This document shows, in pieces, positions 12,770 through 24,475 of a DNA stretch of 35,326 bases. Location of the stretch: NCBI GenBank assembly GCA_030650885.1, contig JAUSDE010000014.1:1-35326 (forward strand). The letters are read 5' to 3'. Every line of letters starts with the position of its first letter. The first letter of the stretch is position 1. The notes under the pieces were generated by a model. The model had not been told where the DNA came from and made no database searches. It saw only the letters and a list, made by a program, of their open reading frames with translations. This stretch comes from Thermoleophilia bacterium (GTDB lineage Bacteria; Actinomycetota; Thermoleophilia; BMS3ABIN01). Both the position numbers and the translations under genes were made by a program.

Positions 12770-15604
12770 TTAATCAAGAAAAGTTGTATCTTTTTCAGCT
12801 TGTTTTTGAAAATATAAGGCTGCATCGAGGCGGTTCGTAAAACCCATCTTCCTGAAAATTTTTACTACGTGAGTTTTCACTGTTCGCTCTGAGATATAGA
12901 GCATTTGTGCAATTTGGTTATTTGTTAATCCAAGTGAAAGCTTTTCAAGGACTTCAACTTCCCTCATTGTTAGCAGATCTGAAGGACTCTTTAAATTCTT
13001 GCGAAGTTTATACAGGGATTTTCTCACAATTTCTTGTACACTAACTTCGCTGTCATGTCGCATTCTCCTCAAAAGGGCGAGCGCACCGGTCGAACCTATT
13101 CCGCATAACAATTTCGCAATTTTTTCTCTAATTATTTTGTCATCATGTTTTAGTAACGGTTCGATTGAATCCAGCGACCCTTGACCAATTTGCTCGAGAA
13201 TCCAAAAGACATAATCACTCTTTATACCAATTTCCAGGGCAGCCGTAAAAAGGGGTAAGGAAATTCTGCCTTCTTGAATAATGTAATGGTTATGCTGAAA
13301 TTTATCAGCACGTTGTAAAGCTCTAGTTAGATAATATTTCATCTTAAGTTCGTCACTATTCGTGTAACTAGCCCAGGCTCGACTAAAGTCAATTTGAGTA
13401 TTTACATAATTAAGGCCGTATTTTTTTGCGTAGCATTTAGCTGTATTGAAATATTCTTCCGCCTCATCAAATTTATATAGACGTAAAAGATCGGCTGCTA
13501 TATTCGCATTACTCATTGCGACTTCATAAAGTTCATCTGTCAATAAAGCTTCCGACAAGCTGCTCTTATGGAATTTTAATGCTTCACTGGGGTTACCTTG
13601 CCGTCTTGATAAAGTCCCCAGGTGGCAGAGAGAGTCGGCAGTAACATCACTTCGTTTCTGATCAATCCTCAGGGAAACCTCAAGTGCCTCTTCCAATAGT
13701 TGCTTCCCCTTTTTTGCCTCTCCATTGGCGATATGAATGCATCCCAATGTATCTAGAATGGAGGGCAACAATTTGAGTTCATGTCGTTTCTTGATGCCAT
13801 CTTCACAAAGCAAGGCTAATCGTAAAGCTTCATCATATTTACCAAGCATCATCAGACAAGATGCTAAATTGTTTTCGTAGAAATACTGTTGGCTATTTGA
13901 TAACCCATCCCTCGAGCAATACTTAGATAGCGATTTGTATGCAATTTGAAAAATTCCCTGACGCATATTCTGCATTTCCGCTATATTTGTAAAACAAGTT
14001 TTTTGGATACTGTCATCTTCACAAAGAACTGAGTTTGCCATATCGCAACATAATTGAATGCCGTGTTGGTCAAAACTAATCCAATAACTAATAGCTAATT
14101 GAGAAATTACCTCTAGCCTTAGTTCTGGCGATAAGCATCGCAATAAATGGTCCTTTAGTATTTCTATAGCTTCATGTTTATTTCCCAATTCGTTGAGGCA
14201 TTCGCACTCTGCAATTAGTGACTTTGATAGCATCACAAGATTACTTGGGTTCAGAAGTTTTTTGACTTTTTTTAAATCGTTCAGCGCCTTACGAAACTTC
14301 CCAGCTGACATCAGGATCATGGCCTTCTGGATCTGCAAGGTGGGGGTAATGAATATCTCCGGCAGGGAATCGATCCATTTTTCCAGTGTTGCGTACTCTG
14401 CGGAGTTGAGCATTTGATCGCCTGCTTTTTCGATCAGTGCTGCAGCATCGGAGTATTTTTCAGCCGATAGATATTGTTCGATGGCTTTCCATTCCTTCCC
14501 CGCATCCACAAATGCTTTCGCATAATCGTTCCTGATGCGGTTTATGTCCTCCTGTTCATTCTGTTGAAGCAACCGTGAATTAAGGAAGTCACGAAAAAGT
14601 GGGTGATACCGATACATAGCCGCTTCGTCGAGCCTGTTAGTGAAAAGGTTGCGTTGTTCCGCCTCCGCCAGCAATTTTCCTGTACCTGCTAATCCCAGAG
14701 CCTTTTCGCATATAGTCGGATCCACGGGGTCGATCAACGCTGACTTTATCAAAAGCTCCTGCATTTCGACCGGCTGGTTGTTGAGAACTTCCTCTGCAAG
14801 ATATTCATATACATTTTGCTGCATGCGGCTTTGAGAGAATAGATCAGGCATATCGCTACCAGACCTGAGATAGTTCTCAGTCAGCACCAGCCCAGCCGCC
14901 CATCCCTCCGTGCTTCTATGCACTTTGTTCAGAACCGCCGGAGAAGCCTGGATTTCCCAGATATCAGTCAGGCTGGATAATTCGTCCAGGGAAAATTGAA
15001 GGTCCTCATCATTCACGTCCAAGATCAAGCCCTGAGTACGCAAACGGCCAAGGCTGAGTTCAGGGTAATTACGAGTGGCGATGACTAGCTGGGAATTTTC
15101 TGAAAGATTCCGTACCAGATACTCAGCAATGCGAGACCCATGATCAAATTCGTCAAATAGATGAAAATCATCAAAACAAAGCATGAGTGGAGAATCGCCG
15201 TTTTCACGAAGTTCATCGATCAGTACGGCCAGAACGCTCTCAATCTCTACTGAAAATTCAGTGACATCGCCCAGACGCGAGCGGGCTCGGGCTCTTTCGA
15301 ATCCACACGCGTGAGTTATTCCGGCGATAAGGTGCCGCAGGAACACGGCAGGGTCGCGATCCAGATCGTCTACTTGATACCAGACACTGAAACCGGTGAA
15401 TTCCCGGAGCATCTGCGCCATCAGAGTCGTCTTGCCAAAACCCGGGCCTGCGCAGATACTTATTAAGCGCGGAGCGCCGTTTGATCCCGGCCACATTAAG
15501 AGTCGCGGTCGTTCCAGAACCTGGCGCAATCTTGGCGGCCTTAGTTTACCTTCAAGAATATATTTCGAATTTTTGTCCGGCCCTACGACTTCCCGCGGCT
15601 GCAC
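12770..15604 (-). CDS. MalT-like (LAL/STAND ATPase) LuxR-family transcriptional regulator with TPR and HEAT-like regions
   Basis: Walker A AGPGFGKTTLMAQ, LMLCFDDFHLFDEF, TPR-like middle, HEAT-like segment, C-terminal LTMREVEVLEKLSLGLTNNQIAQMLYISERTVKTHVVKIFRKMGFTNRLDA. Confidence 0.9.
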   Translation of the reverse strand: MQPREVVGPDKNSKYILEGKLRPPRLRQVLERPRLLMWPGSNGAPRLISICAGPGFGKTTLMAQMLREFTGFSVWYQVDDLDRDPAVFLRHLIAGITHACGFERARARSRLGDVTEFSVEIESVLAVLIDELRENGDSPLMLCFDDFHLFDEFDHGSRIAEYLVRNLSENSQLVIATRNYPELSLGRLRTQGLILDVNDEDLQFSLDELSSLTDIWEIQASPAVLNKVHRSTEGWAAGLVLTENYLRSGSDMPDLFSQSRMQQNVYEYLAEEVLNNQPVEMQELLIKSALIDPVDPTICEKALGLAGTGKLLAEAEQRNLFTNRLDEAAMYRYHPLFRDFLNSRLLQQNEQEDINRIRNDYAKAFVDAGKEWKAIEQYLSAEKYSDAAALIEKAGDQMLNSAEYATLEKWIDSLPEIFITPTLQIQKAMILMSAGKFRKALNDLKKVKKLLNPSNLVMLSKSLIAECECLNELGNKHEAIEILKDHLLRCLSPELRLEVISQLAISYWISFDQHGIQLCCDMANSVLCEDDSIQKTCFTNIAEMQNMRQGIFQIAYKSLSKYCSRDGLSNSQQYFYENNLASCLMMLGKYDEALRLALLCEDGIKKRHELKLLPSILDTLGCIHIANGEAKKGKQLLEEALEVSLRIDQKRSDVTADSLCHLGTLSRRQGNPSEALKFHKSSLSEALLTDELYEVAMSNANIAADLLRLYKFDEAEEYFNTAKCYAKKYGLNYVNTQIDFSRAWASYTNSDELKMKYYLTRALQRADKFQHNHYIIQEGRISLPLFTAALEIGIKSDYVFWILEQIGQGSLDSIEPLLKHDDKIIREKIAKLLCGIGSTGALALLRRMRHDSEVSVQEIVRKSLYKLRKNLKSPSDLLTMREVEVLEKLSLGLTNNQIAQMLYISERTVKTHVVKIFRKMGFTNRLDAALYFQKQAEKDTTFLD

Positions 15605-15708
15605 TTTCCCTCATTTCCCCACCCCGTGTTTTATGCACTCTGACCTAACAAGAACGCCAATTCAGGGCATAAATGTTCGATCACAGCATGTGAATATGTC
15701 ACTCAAAT

Positions 15709-18549
15709 CTAATTACCTCTTCCCGACTCGTCACTTCCTGCACAATTATTATTCTTCTGGTATATGGCCGCAACTTGCGAGCGGCTGGTCAAGCCCAGTT
15801 TTCTGAATATGCTGCTGATATGAGTTTTCGCGGTCGGCTCGCTGATATACAGGCGCTCGGCGAGCTCGGCGTTGCTCATGCCCTCGGCCATGAGTTCCAT
15901 CACCTGATTCTCGCGACGGGTCAGAATCTCTTCCGGAGCATCAATCGTAGACCGCAGACAACGCAGCTCTGCATTAGCTGCCCGCCGAACCGAAACATCC
16001 TGGTCACGGAGCACCCGCCTTATGTAGGGCGCAGCCGCAACGCCACCCGAGGCTGTCAGGGCGGTGATCGCCGCAGCTTTGATCTGAGGCGAACCACTAT
16101 TTAGTAGTGATGCAAAGTCCTCCAGCGCTATCGGGCCTATTGATGGAAGGATTCCTATCATGTACTCGCGTTCGATGTCATGCATGAAAGCAAGTGCCAA
16201 AAGACCTGTGCTAATCCTGCCCTCCTGAATTATGAAGTTATTATGCTGGTATAGAGCGGCAAGTTGCAGAGATTTGCCTATTTCCACGAGCGCCCGTTCC
16301 TCATCCCCGTCCTCGAAAGCAGAACAGGCAAAAATATAATGGACCTGCGTGGAAATATATTTATAGCCGTGCCTCACCGCCAGAATTTGAGCTTCTTCAA
16401 GGTCGTTGATGCCTTGCGGGTCATCATGTTTCCGCCTGAGCCTGTCCGCGCCAAGATTAACCAGGCAGCTCGCGGCCGAATACTGATTTCCCCCGTCACG
16501 ATGATGCAGATACATCGAATGTGCTTCGATCGCCTTATCCAGATCGCCCTGGCGCCGGAAGTGAGATCCCAGATATTTTGGACTGTAGAAGGGGCCAAGA
16601 ACCCTGGAGTCACCAACCTCCCTGTCGAGCGCCTCTATGATCTTTTGGCCGGTATCGCCGTCTTCAATGTTAAGCAGAACAACTCCCCTCAGGAATTCGT
16701 ACCCCATCCTTAGTTGCTGATCCTCATCGCCAAGATATTCGCTCCGCTCAGCGATCGCAGCCAGGGCTTCCTCGTATCTGCCCATCTCATAAAGTGAAAA
16801 TATTTTCCAGGTAAGGATATAGAACCTGATGAGCATCGGCGAGCGCATGCTTGATTCCCCCTGCAGCTCGACGGCTTTATCCTGCAGCAACTGGAACTCT
16901 CCGGCAAACCAGCTGGAAGCCATCCCGTTTGTCGCGAGCACGAAGCGCGTCTCAACCATCGTTACATCACACAAGTCTGTCGCCTGCTCCATAAGTTCCA
17001 ACGCCTCCTGCCCGAACCCCAACAGCAGATTCTGCGTTGCCATGCGGGAAAGAGCCGCCACCTTCTGCTCTGGAGTCATGGCCCATTTCAGGGACTCGGC
17101 AGCGTTTTCCAGGCTTTGGGCGTGCATGTCCCTCATAAAGAAGAATTCAGCTTGGGACAATGCACAGGCGAACAGGCCATCAGAGTCACCATCCCGGGCG
17201 AAGCCATCAGCTGCAGCTTTATACCAGCGCACCGCCAGTTCCACATCCCCCTTATGCTCGCTGGTTCTCGCGGAGTAATACGACATCCAGGGCCTGACCA
17301 TGATGGTATCTTCCGGAATCTGGGAGAGCCATTCCGCCACCGTATCGTAGTGGCCTGCCTCCAGAATCGCTCCGCCCTTTGTCTCGATTATGTCCACAGC
17401 CAGAGCGGGAGATCGCGATTCAAGGAAATGATGAATGGCGAAGTCATATTGTTCATGATCCGCATATGCCTTTCCATAGCGTCCATTCAATGCGTCTATA
17501 TCAGAAATCGGCATGCTTTGTTCGAGCTTGTTCTTAAGAAACTGGCGGACGAGCGGTTGATAAATATAGCTTTTGCCTTCTTCCAGACAGGTTATCATCA
17601 GGTTACGCGTTTCCAGTTCCCGAAGATGCCTGGCCGAGTTCGGTTTTCCATCACCGGCCGTCAAAGCCTGGTCGCAGATTCGAACCTCGACTGCTTCAAG
17701 AATTGAGGTCTCTATAAGGAACTGCTGCAATTCATCGCTCAGCTCTGACCAGACTTCCTCAGCGAGGTAACCGGCTATTGCGCCATGCACACCCAGCAAT
17801 TCCGGATTTACATGAATTGGCAATCGCCGATCAACAGTCAGCAGATTTCTGGCAAGAACGATGGCCACCGGCCATCCCTCAGTGGCGGCGTACCATACCT
17901 TCAGCTCCTCTTCATCCAGTTCCCTGCCGCAACAGCCGTTGAAAATCTCTGCCATCTCTTCGATTGTGAACCTGAGGTCTTCCGTGTCGATTTCCTTCAG
18001 ATTCCTCTGCGTTCGAAGCCGCCCAAGTGACAGAGATGGCTTTCCCCTGCTGGCGATGACGACACGGAAATCTGGGGGCAGATGCGTGATCAGGAATTGC
18101 ACAGCGCCGGCAATATACTCGAAATCCTTCACCAGCTGGAACTCATCGAAAAAAAATACAAACGGCGCTGTTGCGGCGCCGCTGATCTCATTGATGAATA
18201 CCGTCAGGTAACTCTCACATTTGTCAGCATCGTCCATCTTGCCTGGCAGGGCCCTCTCCAGTGAAACACCGAATTCGGGTAAGTGCCGGTTCACGCCCTC
18301 AACCATATGAGCCAGAAATACTGCCAGAGCTCTGTCTGCCGAACTGAACTGATACCAGATTCCCTGACTGTCACGCAGAGACTGGTAGAACTGGCCCATG
18401 AGTGTGGTCTTGCCATATCCCGCGTCGGCGCAGAGGACGGTCAGACGCTCATCGCTCGAACTGAAATCGTCCACGAGCCTGATTCTGGGCAGCATGCGGC
18501 TGCAATCCGGCGGAATCAGCTTGGTTTCAAGGATCAACGGTTTCTTCAT
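15709..18549 (-). CDS. MalT-like (LAL/STAND ATPase) LuxR-family transcriptional regulator, paralogue of the preceding gene
   Basis: Walker A ADAGYGKTTLMGQ, FVFFFDEFQLV, HEAT-like segment, LTRRENQVMELMAEGMSNAELAERLYISEPTAKTHISSIFRKLGLTSRSQ. Confidence 0.92.
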   Translation of the reverse strand: MKKPLILETKLIPPDCSRMLPRIRLVDDFSSSDERLTVLCADAGYGKTTLMGQFYQSLRDSQGIWYQFSSADRALAVFLAHMVEGVNRHLPEFGVSLERALPGKMDDADKCESYLTVFINEISGAATAPFVFFFDEFQLVKDFEYIAGAVQFLITHLPPDFRVVIASRGKPSLSLGRLRTQRNLKEIDTEDLRFTIEEMAEIFNGCCGRELDEEELKVWYAATEGWPVAIVLARNLLTVDRRLPIHVNPELLGVHGAIAGYLAEEVWSELSDELQQFLIETSILEAVEVRICDQALTAGDGKPNSARHLRELETRNLMITCLEEGKSYIYQPLVRQFLKNKLEQSMPISDIDALNGRYGKAYADHEQYDFAIHHFLESRSPALAVDIIETKGGAILEAGHYDTVAEWLSQIPEDTIMVRPWMSYYSARTSEHKGDVELAVRWYKAAADGFARDGDSDGLFACALSQAEFFFMRDMHAQSLENAAESLKWAMTPEQKVAALSRMATQNLLLGFGQEALELMEQATDLCDVTMVETRFVLATNGMASSWFAGEFQLLQDKAVELQGESSMRSPMLIRFYILTWKIFSLYEMGRYEEALAAIAERSEYLGDEDQQLRMGYEFLRGVVLLNIEDGDTGQKIIEALDREVGDSRVLGPFYSPKYLGSHFRRQGDLDKAIEAHSMYLHHRDGGNQYSAASCLVNLGADRLRRKHDDPQGINDLEEAQILAVRHGYKYISTQVHYIFACSAFEDGDEERALVEIGKSLQLAALYQHNNFIIQEGRISTGLLALAFMHDIEREYMIGILPSIGPIALEDFASLLNSGSPQIKAAAITALTASGGVAAAPYIRRVLRDQDVSVRRAANAELRCLRSTIDAPEEILTRRENQVMELMAEGMSNAELAERLYISEPTAKTHISSIFRKLGLTSRSQVAAIYQKNNNCAGSDESGRGN

Positions 18550-19236: not shown

Positions 19237-20733
19237 ATGGAGGATGCTATCAATACCAGCCGCAACCGGTATATTGCCCTTTCCGTGCTCTGCGCCGGCA
19301 TATTCCTGGCAGCTATAGATCAGACAGTTGTGGTGACTGTGCTGCCGCGTATCATCGATGACCTCGAAGGAGGCTTCAGCCCTGCCGGTGTGGAACGTGC
19401 CGGGTGGATCATCACCGCTTACCTGTTCGGCTTCGCGGTCGTGCTGCCGCTGATGGGGCGCGTGGCGGATCTCTACGGCCATCGACGGACTTACGGGCTG
19501 GCGATGGTTATCTTCGCCCTTGGCTCTTTGCTCTGCGCGTTCAGCGACAGCCTTTACGCACTTGTGGGTTTTCGGGCGCTGCAGGCGGTCGGCGGTGGCG
19601 CCATGGTTCCAATCGCGATGGCCGTGGTCGGCCACAATTTCCCTGCTGGCAAGCGAGCCCTGGCTCTAGGCATCATCGGCGCATCCGGGGAAGCAGGCGG
19701 AGTGCTTGGTCCGCTATACGGTTCATTAATCGGCCAGTACATCGGCTGGCGCGCTATTTTCTATCTTAACATCCCCCTGGTGCTGGTGATCGTCTGGTTG
19801 TTATGGCGATACGTGGATGAGAGCAAAAGGTATAAGGTCGCCATCGATTACAGAAGCGCCGCACTGATGGCCCTGGGGTTGGGACTCACTACCCTTGGCG
19901 TCTCAGGAGGCCGGGAGGCGGGATGGTATGGCTTCGGTTTGCCGCTTGTGGGCTTGGGCCTGGCTTTGATCATTGCATTTATCTTCAGCGACCTGCGTTC
20001 GGAGCACCCTCTGGTGAATTTTCAGCTTTTCTCCAACCGATCATTCGCTTCGGCGAATATCGCCCATTTCCTGGTGGGGATCGCGCTGATCACTGCTCTG
20101 GTGCAGGTGCCATCCTTCGCATATAGCTCCGGCTGGCCCGCGTCCTCCTATAGCGATCCGATGACCGGAGGCCTGCTGCTGATCCGGCTGACACTGATGA
20201 TCCCGGCAGGAGCGATCGTCGGCGGGCTTCTTTGCGGCCGTGTGGGCGGACGGCTGCCGGCGGTTTTCGGTTTTGTTCTCTCGGCGTTCGGCCTTTGGCG
20301 GATGAGCCTCTGGGATGCCGATGTCGGAGCTATGAGGCAGACCCTGGACCTGCTGATAGCGGGGTTCGGATTCGGCCTGGTGATCGCCCCGATTAGCCTG
20401 GCAGTTGTGAATTCGGTCAAGCGCCGCAGGATGGCTTCAGCGTCAGCAGTGCTTACCACCAGCCGGATCATCGGCATGATGGTCGGCCTGGCGGCTCTCA
20501 ACAGCTGGGGAATCAGCAAATTTCAACAGGCCCAGGAAGCGGATCCGGCACCGGTACCGCGCCGCGGTATGAGCGTCACAGAATACCTGGAAGAACTGAA
20601 GTTATGGGAGCACCACAGCGTTGAAACGATCCTTGGGGTTCTCAGCGATTTCTTTCTGATCGCGGCGGTCGTCTGCGTGATCGCTATCATCCCGTCACTG
20701 CTGCTTTTCCGGAAAGACAGTGAACCGTACTAG
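19237..20733 (+). CDS. MFS transporter, DHA2 (EmrB/QacA-like) family
   Basis: LSVLCAGIFLAAIDQTVVVTVLPRIIDDL, GRVADLYGHRRTYGLAMVIFALGSLLCAFS, many TM helices. ORF track opens at 19177; Met at 19237 fits the family N-terminus better. Confidence 0.92.
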   Translation: MEDAINTSRNRYIALSVLCAGIFLAAIDQTVVVTVLPRIIDDLEGGFSPAGVERAGWIITAYLFGFAVVLPLMGRVADLYGHRRTYGLAMVIFALGSLLCAFSDSLYALVGFRALQAVGGGAMVPIAMAVVGHNFPAGKRALALGIIGASGEAGGVLGPLYGSLIGQYIGWRAIFYLNIPLVLVIVWLLWRYVDESKRYKVAIDYRSAALMALGLGLTTLGVSGGREAGWYGFGLPLVGLGLALIIAFIFSDLRSEHPLVNFQLFSNRSFASANIAHFLVGIALITALVQVPSFAYSSGWPASSYSDPMTGGLLLIRLTLMIPAGAIVGGLLCGRVGGRLPAVFGFVLSAFGLWRMSLWDADVGAMRQTLDLLIAGFGFGLVIAPISLAVVNSVKRRRMASASAVLTTSRIIGMMVGLAALNSWGISKFQQAQEADPAPVPRRGMSVTEYLEELKLWEHHSVETILGVLSDFFLIAAVVCVIAIIPSLLLFRKDSEPY

Positions 20734-21362
20734 GGCTTGGTGATATCCACTACTATTCTTCCAGGCGAACCCAGACCGGCAAGTGAATATGTGGATGGCG
20801 ACGCCAGCTCGATGGAATATGCAAGTGACTGGTCATCGCTTTGCTGAAGCCGCTTGAGCGTTGTTACCACCGGATCTCCCAGATCAAGTGAGCTGGAAGT
20901 TACGCTCTCATTTGTGCCGATGGACCTGATTCCGCCGAGAACTACTTTTATCTGTGTGCCGTCGGCTGACATGGTGGCATCGGCATGCGGGACCTGCAGT
21001 ACCTGATCTCCTTCAGGAGTCCCCATCTCGAAGACGATGCGATAATAGGTGCCGTGATCGGACCATCTAATATCACGAAGCTGCAGACCATCAACCAGGG
21101 TCCCAACTGACTGGCTTCCCGTAAGTCCGGCACCATAGGGTGACGGCTGCTCCTCGGGTACAGTCTGGGTCTGATCAGCTGCGATGAAGGGTACCGGCGC
21201 CTCCACGGGGGTTGTCAAAGTCGTGATACTGCCACCGGCTGCATTTGTGTTTGCGTCGCTGGATGATTCATCACCACAGCCACCCATGAACGTCAGCGAC
21301 TGCAGCGCAATCAAAATAAGCGCAGCGGCAGCCACGAGCATACGAATCCTTGTCAGTCGCAT
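20730..21362 (-). CDS. Lipoprotein with AMIN-like domain
   Basis: Lipobox SLTFMGGCGDESS; RWSDHGTYYRIVFEM...VPHADATMSADGTQIKVVLGGIRS resembles actinobacterial AMIN-like lipoproteins. Start preceded by GGAGGAGCG. Confidence 0.75.
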   Translation of the reverse strand: MRLTRIRMLVAAAALILIALQSLTFMGGCGDESSSDANTNAAGGSITTLTTPVEAPVPFIAADQTQTVPEEQPSPYGAGLTGSQSVGTLVDGLQLRDIRWSDHGTYYRIVFEMGTPEGDQVLQVPHADATMSADGTQIKVVLGGIRSIGTNESVTSSSLDLGDPVVTTLKRLQQSDDQSLAYSIELASPSTYSLAGLGSPGRIVVDITKP

Positions 21363-21402
21363 CGCGCTCCTCCGAATGGGGCAAGTGAGGAAATCTGCAG
21401 AA

Positions 21403-21553
21403 GTCCCAAGGAACCTTCGGAAAAATCATTCCCCATCGCGAATGGGAAAGCCCTGGCTGGCTCCGTAATACGCGGGCTCATGGCGCCGCGTTTCCGTACC
21501 AGGGAAGTCTCCCGGAGTAACCCGGGATTGCCATCGTCCGATTCCTTGGGACC
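21403..21553 (-). ncRNA. Structured element A (proximal of two related elements) upstream of the lipoprotein gene
   Basis: 11-bp terminal helix GTCCCAAGGAA (21403-21413)/TTCCTTGGGAC (21542-21552); helix CCCTGG (21451-21456)/CCAGGG (21499-21504); apical CGCGG-N10-CCGCG (21471-21475/21486-21490). Confidence 0.65.
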
Positions 21554-21664
21554 ATCAATGATTCTAGTCCACCAGAAATGCATCGGCAATAGCATCTGCC
21601 GCAGATTCAAAGATTTTCAGCGGAATTTGCGAGGATTTTCTCAGGTGCTTCCGGGCATAGAAAA

Positions 21665-21804
21665 GTCCCAAGAAACCTTCTTTGCCTGCCTTCTCAGAGC
21701 CTGCTTCACCTGATTTCCCCGTACTTTGCGGCTTTTTACTTCCGCATTTCCTCTATCAGGCTTCTTTGCAGTTCTCCAGCGAGCCTTTCCGACTTCTTGG
21801 GACC
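21665..21804 (-). ncRNA. Structured element B (distal), related to A with compensatory changes
   Basis: 10-bp terminal helix GTCCCAAGAA (21665-21674)/TTCTTGGGAC (21794-21803); helix CCTGAT (21709-21714)/ATCAGG (21755-21760); apical TGCGG-N10-CCGCA (21727-21731/21742-21746). Confidence 0.65.
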
Positions 21805-21811
21805 TATATAT

Positions 21812-21839
21812 ATTATAAACCTATCCCTCAGGATAGCAA
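21812..21839 (-). promoter_or_regulatory. Candidate sigma70-type promoter firing into element B / lipoprotein leader
   Basis: Minus strand TTGCTA - 16 nt - TATAAT; predicted start falls at the 5' edge of element B. Spacer overlaps palindrome CTATCC-CTCA-GGATAG (21821-21836). Confidence 0.6.
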
Positions 21840-21956
21840 GGTAATCCGCTAGGGGTTTTTACTGAAATTACTGGATTTTGCGGCTTTTTTGTTTCGGTTG
21901 GAATGGCTGGTGGTAGGTATCGTCAACTCCATTTAACCACCAGGGAAGGATGCCTG

Positions 21957-23267
21957 ATGAGCCGATTCTCGTCGACAGCTGTTATGACGCTGCTCTTGTA
22001 TCTGATGTCATTTTCGATGGCAGCCTGCGGGGATTCGGGACCCTCATCAACAGCTGCGGAAACCGCCGTAACCTCGACTTCAGAAATAAAGCCCTTGTTT
22101 AAATCTACCGATTTCACTGACCCGTCGACCTGCGGTAGCTGTCATAGCGATATTTTCGCCCAGTGGCAGGGCTCTATGCATAACAACGCATTCCAGGACA
22201 AGTTTTACCTGAAGATGCATGATGAAGCCAGTAAAGATACGAACGGAGCTGTGGATGCCTATTGCACGTTTTGTCACACCCCGATAGGCACGATGTCCGG
22301 TGAGGTGCCCCCGACATCCGGTCCCCAGATCAGCGAAATCTCGAAGAAGGGCGTTCAGTGCGATCTCTGTCACACGGTAACGAGCGCGAATTTTACTTTC
22401 GCGCCCAGCAAGATAAAACAGGGGCCTTTCACGGACTCCATCTCCACCTTCCATGAGACTGCATATAACGAGCTGTTTACCAAGTCGGAATTCTGCGGCA
22501 TGTGCCACGACGTCAACCATCCGGATAATAATCTTGCCCTTGAAGCCACCTATACGGAATGGAAATCGAGCCCGTATGCAGCCCAGGGAATCCAGTGCCA
22601 GGATTGCCATATGACACCAGGCCCGGGCGTCACCAAACCGAACCCCGGGAAGGCGGCGACTGGAGGCCCCGAGCGGACTCATATCTATACTCACCAGTTC
22701 GTAGGTGGCAATGCCACCTCGCTGGCGTCGCCCGAACATCAGAAGCTGGCAGTCGCACAGTTACAGGCTGCGGCAAGCCTGTCGATCTCTTCGCCCCCAA
22801 GCGTTGTTCCGGGAGGCGACATGGAGTTGCAGGTGACCGTGAACAACAGGGGAGCCGGGCATTACCTGCCGACCGGTCTGACAGAGGTCAGGGAGATGTG
22901 GCTGGATATTGATATTACCGATGCGAACGGCAAGACAATATACCGTTCTGGCGCTGTTGGGGAGAACGGCTCTGTGGATCCGAAGGCTGTCATGTATCAG
23001 ACGCTGTTCAGTGACAAGGACGGCCAGCCGACCCACAAGCCGTGGCTGGCCGTGGCGACCCTTTCCGACAATCGGATTCCGCCCATGGGCAGCGCGACTG
23101 AAAAATACAGCGTTACCGTGCCTGCCGGCACATCGATGCCGCTGACTGTCAAAGCCGGTTTGCGCTATCGCACAGCTTCGCAATCATTTGTGGACGAGTT
23201 GATGGGAGTGGACGCAGTCGAAATGCCGGTCATCGACATGGCAAACGCGACAGCCGAGGCGAAGTAA
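21957..23267 (+). CDS. Multiheme c-type cytochrome lipoprotein (5 CXXCH motifs, cytochrome c554-like)
   Basis: CGSCH, CTFCH, CDLCH, CGMCH, CQDCH; lipobox SFSMAACGDSG. Start Met 21957 (ORF track 21903). Confidence 0.9.
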   Translation: MSRFSSTAVMTLLLYLMSFSMAACGDSGPSSTAAETAVTSTSEIKPLFKSTDFTDPSTCGSCHSDIFAQWQGSMHNNAFQDKFYLKMHDEASKDTNGAVDAYCTFCHTPIGTMSGEVPPTSGPQISEISKKGVQCDLCHTVTSANFTFAPSKIKQGPFTDSISTFHETAYNELFTKSEFCGMCHDVNHPDNNLALEATYTEWKSSPYAAQGIQCQDCHMTPGPGVTKPNPGKAATGGPERTHIYTHQFVGGNATSLASPEHQKLAVAQLQAAASLSISSPPSVVPGGDMELQVTVNNRGAGHYLPTGLTEVREMWLDIDITDANGKTIYRSGAVGENGSVDPKAVMYQTLFSDKDGQPTHKPWLAVATLSDNRIPPMGSATEKYSVTVPAGTSMPLTVKAGLRYRTASQSFVDELMGVDAVEMPVIDMANATAEAK

Positions 23268-23293: not shown

Positions 23294-24475
23294 TCAGGCA
23301 TCCTGTAAAACGGCTATGCCGGGCAGCTCTTTACCTTCAAGGAATTCCATTGAGGCGCCGCCGCCTGTGGATACGTGGTCGAGGTTATCGGCGAGTCCGT
23401 AGCGATTGAGCGCGGCTACGGTATCGCCACCTCCGGAGACTGTAAGGGCATCGTCTGCATTGGCCACCGCGGAGGCGACAGCACGGGTGCCGGATGAGAA
23501 TGGTTCCATCTCGAAGGCGCCCATCGGTCCGTTCCAGAAGATGGTACGCGCCATCTGGATCTCCCTGACATAATGAGCCGATGTGGCCGGGCCGATGTCG
23601 AGGCCCATCCAGCCTTCGGGTATCTGCTCGACGCGCACTATCTGCGCGTGGGCCTCAGCTGCAAATTCATCCGCTACCACCAGGTCGACCGGCAGCATAA
23701 TGCGGCATTTTGAACTTTTCGCTTTCTCAAGGGCCGCAGCGGCAACTCCGATGGCTTCTTCCTCAACCTTTGAAGCGCCGATATCGATGCCCTGAGCTTT
23801 CAGAAAACCGAAGCACATGGCGCCGCCGATGATGATGGCGTCAGCGAAATCCAGAAAACGGTCGATGACGCCGATCTTGTCCGACACCTTGACGCCACCG
23901 AGGATAGTCACGAACGGGTGCTTCGGATGCGCGATCAGGTGATTGAGCTGCAGCAGTTCGTTCTCGAGGAGAAATCCTGCCACTGAGGGTAGAAGAGCCG
24001 CAACTCCGGCGGTAGATGCGTGAGCCCGGTGAGCGGTGCCGAAGGCGTCGTTGACGAAGACGTCTGCGAGGCGCGCCAGAGCTGCTGCGAATTCCGGGTC
24101 GTTCTTCTTTTCTTCCGGATGAAAGCGGCTGTTCTCCAGAAGCGCCACGCCGCCGCTGGGAAGTTCGGCAAGCCTGGCCTCGACCTCGGGCCCGATGCAA
24201 TCGTTAAGTTTCATGACCTCCACACCTAACAGATCAGAGAGACGAGCCGCTATCGGGTCCATCCGCAAAGCATCGTCGGGACCATCCTTGGGCCTTCCCA
24301 GATGAGAGATAAGGATGACCCTGCTCCCGGCCTGCCGCAGGTAATTGATAGTGCCCAAAGCCGCGCGAATGCGCGTGTCATCTACAACCGCGCCATTTTC
24401 CAGGGGAACATTGAAATCAACGCGCACAAGCACGCGCTTGCCGACGACATCTATTTCTTTGACAGTCTTTTTCAT
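23294..24475 (-). CDS. pgk: Phosphoglycerate kinase
   Basis: MKKTVKEIDVVGKRVLVRVDFNVPLENG...ILISHLGRPK...VSGGGDTVAALNRYG...STGGGASMEFLEGKELPGI. ORF-track N-terminal extension (24625) rejected. Confidence 0.98.
   Translation of the reverse strand: MKKTVKEIDVVGKRVLVRVDFNVPLENGAVVDDTRIRAALGTINYLRQAGSRVILISHLGRPKDGPDDALRMDPIAARLSDLLGVEVMKLNDCIGPEVEARLAELPSGGVALLENSRFHPEEKKNDPEFAAALARLADVFVNDAFGTAHRAHASTAGVAALLPSVAGFLLENELLQLNHLIAHPKHPFVTILGGVKVSDKIGVIDRFLDFADAIIIGGAMCFGFLKAQGIDIGASKVEEEAIGVAAAALEKAKSSKCRIMLPVDLVVADEFAAEAHAQIVRVEQIPEGWMGLDIGPATSAHYVREIQMARTIFWNGPMGAFEMEPFSSGTRAVASAVANADDALTVSGGGDTVAALNRYGLADNLDHVSTGGGASMEFLEGKELPGIAVLQDA

Follow-up and report, generated by a model that had tools for sequence, protein, structure and literature searches.

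Sequence comparison gives good support to a new family of structured small RNAs, predicted to be free-standing, about 120–155 nt long and absent from Rfam 15. Two of its members, here called A and B, lie in tandem on the minus strand of the window, the whole stretch of 35,326 nucleotides analysed in this work. They are paralogous members of a single structured RNA family, and the proposal of a first-pass annotation that they represent a duplicated non-coding RNA selected for its structure was borne out by the homology of A and B and by compensatory changes among their relatives. Below, f1 denotes the window's own taxonomic family and f5 a second family of the same class (records labelled Thermoleophilia/Actinomycetota); covariance model R1 was built from 23 B-type sequences and model R2 from 63 matches.

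Two paralogous RNA elements and their relatives

The features of the window that bear on the RNA family are the following:
20730..21362, minus: lipoprotein gene with an AMIN-like domain, downstream of element A (PF24837 at 25.2 bits, slightly short of the 27-bit cut-off)
21399..21553, minus: RNA element A, a diverged paralogue that occupies the AMIN-like gene's leader
21561..21566, minus: predicted −10 box of A, promoter-like hexamer TAGAAT
21584..21589, minus: predicted −35 box of A, TTGCCG, between B and A (17-nt spacer)
21661..21804, minus: RNA element B, main B-type member, ~144 nt (133.3 bits with R1, whose training set includes B)
21664..21677, minus: 3′ arm of the B closing stem (covarying helix 1), followed by the terminator-like U-run UUUUCU
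21712..21755, minus: kink-turn-like junction around the B core, 5′ NGA-G and 3′ C-NNN-GA, a sequence pattern from which the 3D form is predicted
21721..21751, minus: B core, GGAAA / apical hairpin with 10-nt loop / AGUAC, near-invariant alignment columns read as bulged-G (loop E)
21791..21804, minus: 5′ arm of the B closing stem (GGUCCCAAGAAGUC; covarying helix 1)
21812..21817, minus: predicted −10 box of B, promoter-like hexamer TATAAT
21834..21839, minus: predicted −35 box of B, TTGCTA (16-nt spacer)
23294..24475, minus: gene for phosphoglycerate kinase, next to B on its upstream side in f1 (PF00162, E 3e-153)

On the minus strand B folds with z = −4.31 and A with z = −3.85; in both cases 0 of 200 dinucleotide shuffles were equally stable, and the plus strands fold less well. 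All helices and conserved blocks initially quoted for the two elements were found on this strand. Their limits, first given as 21403–21553 and 21665–21804, were corrected to those listed above, and the 10-nt apical loop holds for A and B themselves but is no constant of the family, as its length varies in relatives. R1 detects A at 44.6 bits (E about 1e-6) without any A-type sequence in its training set, which places the homology of the two elements beyond chance. They are nevertheless not isostructural: the middle helices of B are replaced in A by two extra hairpins. A short peptide reading AUG-CGG-AAG-UAA in the apical stem of B was also considered and dropped, since by inspection it is not kept in f5.

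Two sequences alone cannot prove covariation, so relatives were gathered. In a MAFFT alignment of 23 sequences, built with no structural input, 90.6% of cells are paired, compared with 77.8% after shuffling, a figure biased towards the structure because the structure was derived from the same alignment; two-sided changes occur in 25 of the 36 pairs, and slid partners pair at just 35–44%. For the 63 matches, in an alignment fitted to the structure, 90.2% of cells are paired, two-sided changes affect 31 of 36 pairs and two-sided cells number 442 against 133 in shuffled controls. Parsimony on a FastTree tree counts 91 compensatory branch events in 28 pairs, where permuted partners give a mean of 5.9 (maximum 21) and slid partners 2–7. 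The compensatory changes originally seen between A and B are part of strong family-wide covariation, and the family does not present sequence conservation without covariation.

In the core, a bulged-G (loop E) motif can be read next to a kink-turn-like junction. GGAAA opposite AGUAC is the pattern of the bulged-G motif of sarcin-ricin type, and it is present in 54 of the 63 members, all A copies included. The sequence pattern of a kink-turn, a 3-nt bulge followed by tandem G·A pairs, occurs in 45 of the 53 non-A members (13/13 B, 26/31 f5, 6/9 C copies) and in 0/10 A copies: A is without a kink-turn. All 13 B copies carry a second kink-turn-like junction. The apical loop is variable among family members.

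A DNA search of 99 related genomes gave matches in 17, mostly of f1, with B conserved across most f1 genomes; wherever both elements were seen, they share a strand and B precedes A. Scanning GTDB genomes for the exact pattern of the core returned 21 stretches. Actinobacterial records, several of which bear the title Thermoleophilia, account for 19; the two matches outside Actinomycetota (L033 and L041) have the core letters only and look like chance. The search of actinobacterial genomes with a covariance model, as the first-pass annotation had suggested, was done with the B-type model and found homologues in f1 and f5 only. R1 detects the family in 36 of 299 genomes of the class, all f1 or f5, with all but one of the sampled f1 genomes positive, and in a phylum sample of 397 genomes every match again falls within these two families; both samples were scored with stricter filters, which weak relatives could escape. 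With R2 and laxer filters (E ≤ 1), nothing was found in f2, f3, f4, f6, f7 and f8, the non-f1/non-f5 genomes of a 40-genome set. Taken together, these searches suggest that, at their sensitivity, the RNA family is confined to two taxonomic families within a single class. An earlier description of it was not found in the open-access papers searched. The RNA family is uncatalogued and combines clear covariation with clear predicted boundaries and the presence of several paralogues in a genome; the bacteria that carry it are uncultured, live in soil and the subsurface, and belong to a lineage known largely through metagenomes.

Comparison with known RNA families

A, B and the D-type loci (D is described below) have no match in Rfam 15 at or above the gathering score, in agreement with the initial failure to place A and B in a known class; elements in 16 relatives, searched at E ≤ 10, returned merely sub-threshold chance matches.

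The closest approach is Dictyoglomi-1 RNA (RF01703), of which the family might be a distant relative. B matches it weakly from end to end (18.5 bits, E 0.07), the two have GGAAA...AGUAC and the letters of a GUAAAA loop in common, and both possess a long closing stem and a GGAAA/AGUAC-type internal loop beside an apical hairpin. However, 18.5 bits is far under the cut-off of 150, other tested members gave no match, and the shared letters belong to the common loop E motif; Dictyoglomi-1 also differs in spanning 236 positions with an extra arm. We regard such kinship as very unlikely. Dictyoglomi-1 is itself an orphan non-coding RNA from an under-sampled lineage (PMC2864571).

The family resembles 6S RNA (RF00013) in being rod-shaped, stand-alone and of like length (about 150 nt for 6S), and 6S paralogues are known from some bacteria. 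In place of an open central bubble, however, its members have a conserved noncanonical core, and RF00013 gives no hit on either A or B. All f1 genomes searched contain a separate 6S RNA; in the window's genome it lies at G000:C24:5558-5714 (77.6 bits, above the Rfam cut-off), which refutes the family as the genome's 6S RNA and leaves hardly any probability to its being a 6S paralogue.

Several GGA motifs recall the CsrB/RsmY-type sponges that sequester CsrA, and there is a weak RsmY match of 13.7 bits (E 0.19), far under the cut-off of 57. The GGA motifs of our family sit in internal loops, unlike those of the sponges, which sit in hairpin loops. In a search of 60 genomes, those of f1 and f5 yielded no CsrA gene, whereas one is present in several sister families; barring an undetected CsrA, this refutes a CsrA sponge, and we give the idea next to no weight.

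Bacterial Y RNAs share the long closing stem and conserved internal loop, but a TROVE/Ro60 gene was found in 0 of 60 genomes, with a control organism positive. Likewise, a kink-turn RNA bound by L7Ae was rejected, as PF01248 proteins occur in 0 of 60 genomes, with 7 control genomes positive. The obvious partner proteins CsrA, L7Ae and Ro60 are all missing from the f1 and f5 genomes searched.

Paralogues, genomic loci and predicted transcription units

The window's genome has at least three copies (A, B and C), and probably four with D. Copy C, at G000:C61:8761-8905, is flanked by murJ-like and UPF0182-type genes, the latter convergent with it, and a lepA-like gene is nearby; gene names at the C, D and f5 loci were read from protein sequences by eye. 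The fourth copy D, at G000:C31:6555-6678 (33 bits with R2, E 5e-4), is rated probable because it keeps mainly the closing stem and the adjoining purine loop. D-type matches recur across most f1 genomes (L127-L142); in several of those whose context was read, they lie a few hundred nucleotides ahead of paired genes for a DAHP synthase (aroF-type) and a prephenate dehydrogenase. In some genomes an inverted-repeat hairpin, CATCTTC...GAAGATG, immediately precedes D.

Genomes of f5 carry one to seven copies each. The main f5 copy adjoins genes of hypoxanthine phosphoribosyltransferase type and of hydrolase type, and in many genomes fpg-argS lies downstream of it in convergent orientation. Some f5 copies have a same-strand gene 80–300 nt downstream. 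One f5 genome (G072) contains seven members, several at contig ends, which suggests recent multiplication.

In other f1 genomes B directly follows the phosphoglycerate kinase gene (L007, L009, L010 and L011). A multihaem cytochrome c554-type gene (21903-23267, plus strand) lies between this gene and B in the window, and likewise in some relatives; it looks inserted, given the direct adjacency elsewhere.

A mobile repeat, raised at first as the alternative to a structured RNA, finds no support: within each family the copies keep their synteny, and a genome has between one and seven of them. Searches gave no match to phages or plasmids and no convincing one to viruses, the single IMG/VR pattern match scoring just 8.6 bits with R2. 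As a separate observation at the edge of the window, a site-specific-recombinase-like ORF (101-1267) overlaps at its 3′ end an opposite-strand tRNA gene (1227-1300), which hints at an element that integrated using the tRNA gene as its attachment site.

Sigma70-like hexamers stand at a fixed distance before A, B and f5 copies, and a typical copy begins 6–9 nt past the conserved −10 box. Mean hexamer matches reach 9.4/12 for f5 (5.5 shuffled), 9.2/12 for A-type (5.9 shuffled) and 8.5/12 for B-type copies (6.5 shuffled). In A-type relatives, similar hexamers recur with unchanged position and spacing, and in many B copies the −10 is perfect or nearly so but the −35 is poor. The C copies show no fit to sigma70; seven of nine have TAA-N18-CGATA instead, which we take to be the spacing expected for the FliA/WhiG consensus. 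This consensus is TAAA-N15-GCCGATAA. We therefore predict that C is driven by a FliA/WhiG-type promoter, and the FliA_WhiG family was matched in 40 of 40 genomes searched, above its cut-off in 37.

At the other end, most copies of B, f5 and C type have a U-run after the closing stem; it is retained among B relatives and weak for A in the window. Since copies end at the closing stem and then the U-run, the closing stem appears to double as a terminator. The family thus shows the marks of a stand-alone small RNA: a promoter and a terminator of its own, as predicted from the fixed-distance hexamers and U-runs, and covariation behind its conserved structure.

Candidate modes of action

As first described, A lies upstream of an AMIN-like lipoprotein gene, and this was confirmed: A is in the leader of the gene, whose PF24837 score stays below the cut-off, and in f1 the two share one predicted promoter. 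This arrangement invites a cis-acting riboswitch or attenuator, possibly tandem, in which a ligand would stabilise the closing stem and a terminator would form before the AMIN-like gene. The U-run behind the closing stem in several relatives and the position of D 5′ of a DAHP synthase gene point the same way. However, a separate predicted promoter lies between B and A. Family copies occupy unrelated loci, and their downstream genes vary by paralogue and species and are often convergent, so that the copies do not form the 5′ UTR of a consistent gene set. The AMIN-like gene, moreover, is kept without A in the sister species G008, G009 and G017: in G017 just GGTCC is left at the place of A, and in G008 a −10-like box stands about 10 nt from a start codon, a nearly leaderless start.

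The tandem riboswitch suggested in the first-pass annotation is not supported by these data. Convergent downstream genes refute a riboswitch as the general function of the family, and we consider cis control as its overall explanation quite improbable. Cis roles are possible for A-type and D-type copies, which lie 5′ of same-strand genes (AMIN-like and DAHP synthase, respectively). In some species, then, a paralogue of a putative small RNA sits in the leader of a protein gene that sister species have without it.

The RNA probably acts as a free-standing molecule and not as the built-in sensor of a gene. Taken as a whole, the explanation that we favour, with moderate confidence, is a free-standing structured small RNA with a protein-recognised core, acting in trans. 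Each copy would be transcribed from its own predicted promoter, starting 6–9 nt after the −10 box, and would fold as a rod of stacked helices closed by the GUCCC/GGGAC stem; this stem and the U-run would form the terminator ending the transcript, and the RNA would accumulate as such. The rigid core may then be bound by a lineage-specific protein or complex, with the RNA working in trans, a part of the proposal that we advance tentatively and rate at somewhat under even odds. Different sigma factors (housekeeping for the A, B and f5 copies, FliA/WhiG-type for C) may supply the RNA under different conditions. A would be a paralogue now residing in the AMIN-like leader, with a small-RNA role, a cis action, or both.

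Base-pairing with mRNAs, through the variable apical loop or single-stranded purine stretches, is a fair rival to protein-bound action in trans. Trans-acting small RNAs typically have a promoter and a terminator of their own, as predicted here, and, as in this family, exist as multiple paralogues and vary in their apical loops. On the other hand, the folded rod offers few free single-stranded stretches, and its strongest conservation lies in noncanonical internal loops and not in a seed, which makes base-pairing unlikely as the main function in our estimation. A bolder version of the protein-bound reading has the family as a lineage-specific global regulator or scaffold RNA of the rank of 6S or Csr, with its loop E and kink-turn core, sigma-specific paralogues and one copy captured in the leader of a gene for an envelope lipoprotein; we offer this as speculation, doubtful but worth stating. 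Altogether, two recognisable 3D modules and predicted sigma-specific promoters provide testable leads to the partner and to the condition of expression.

Elsewhere in the window, at 12770-18549 on the minus strand, two adjacent, similar regulators of about 945 amino acids have C-terminal LuxR-type ends and look MalT-like by eye.
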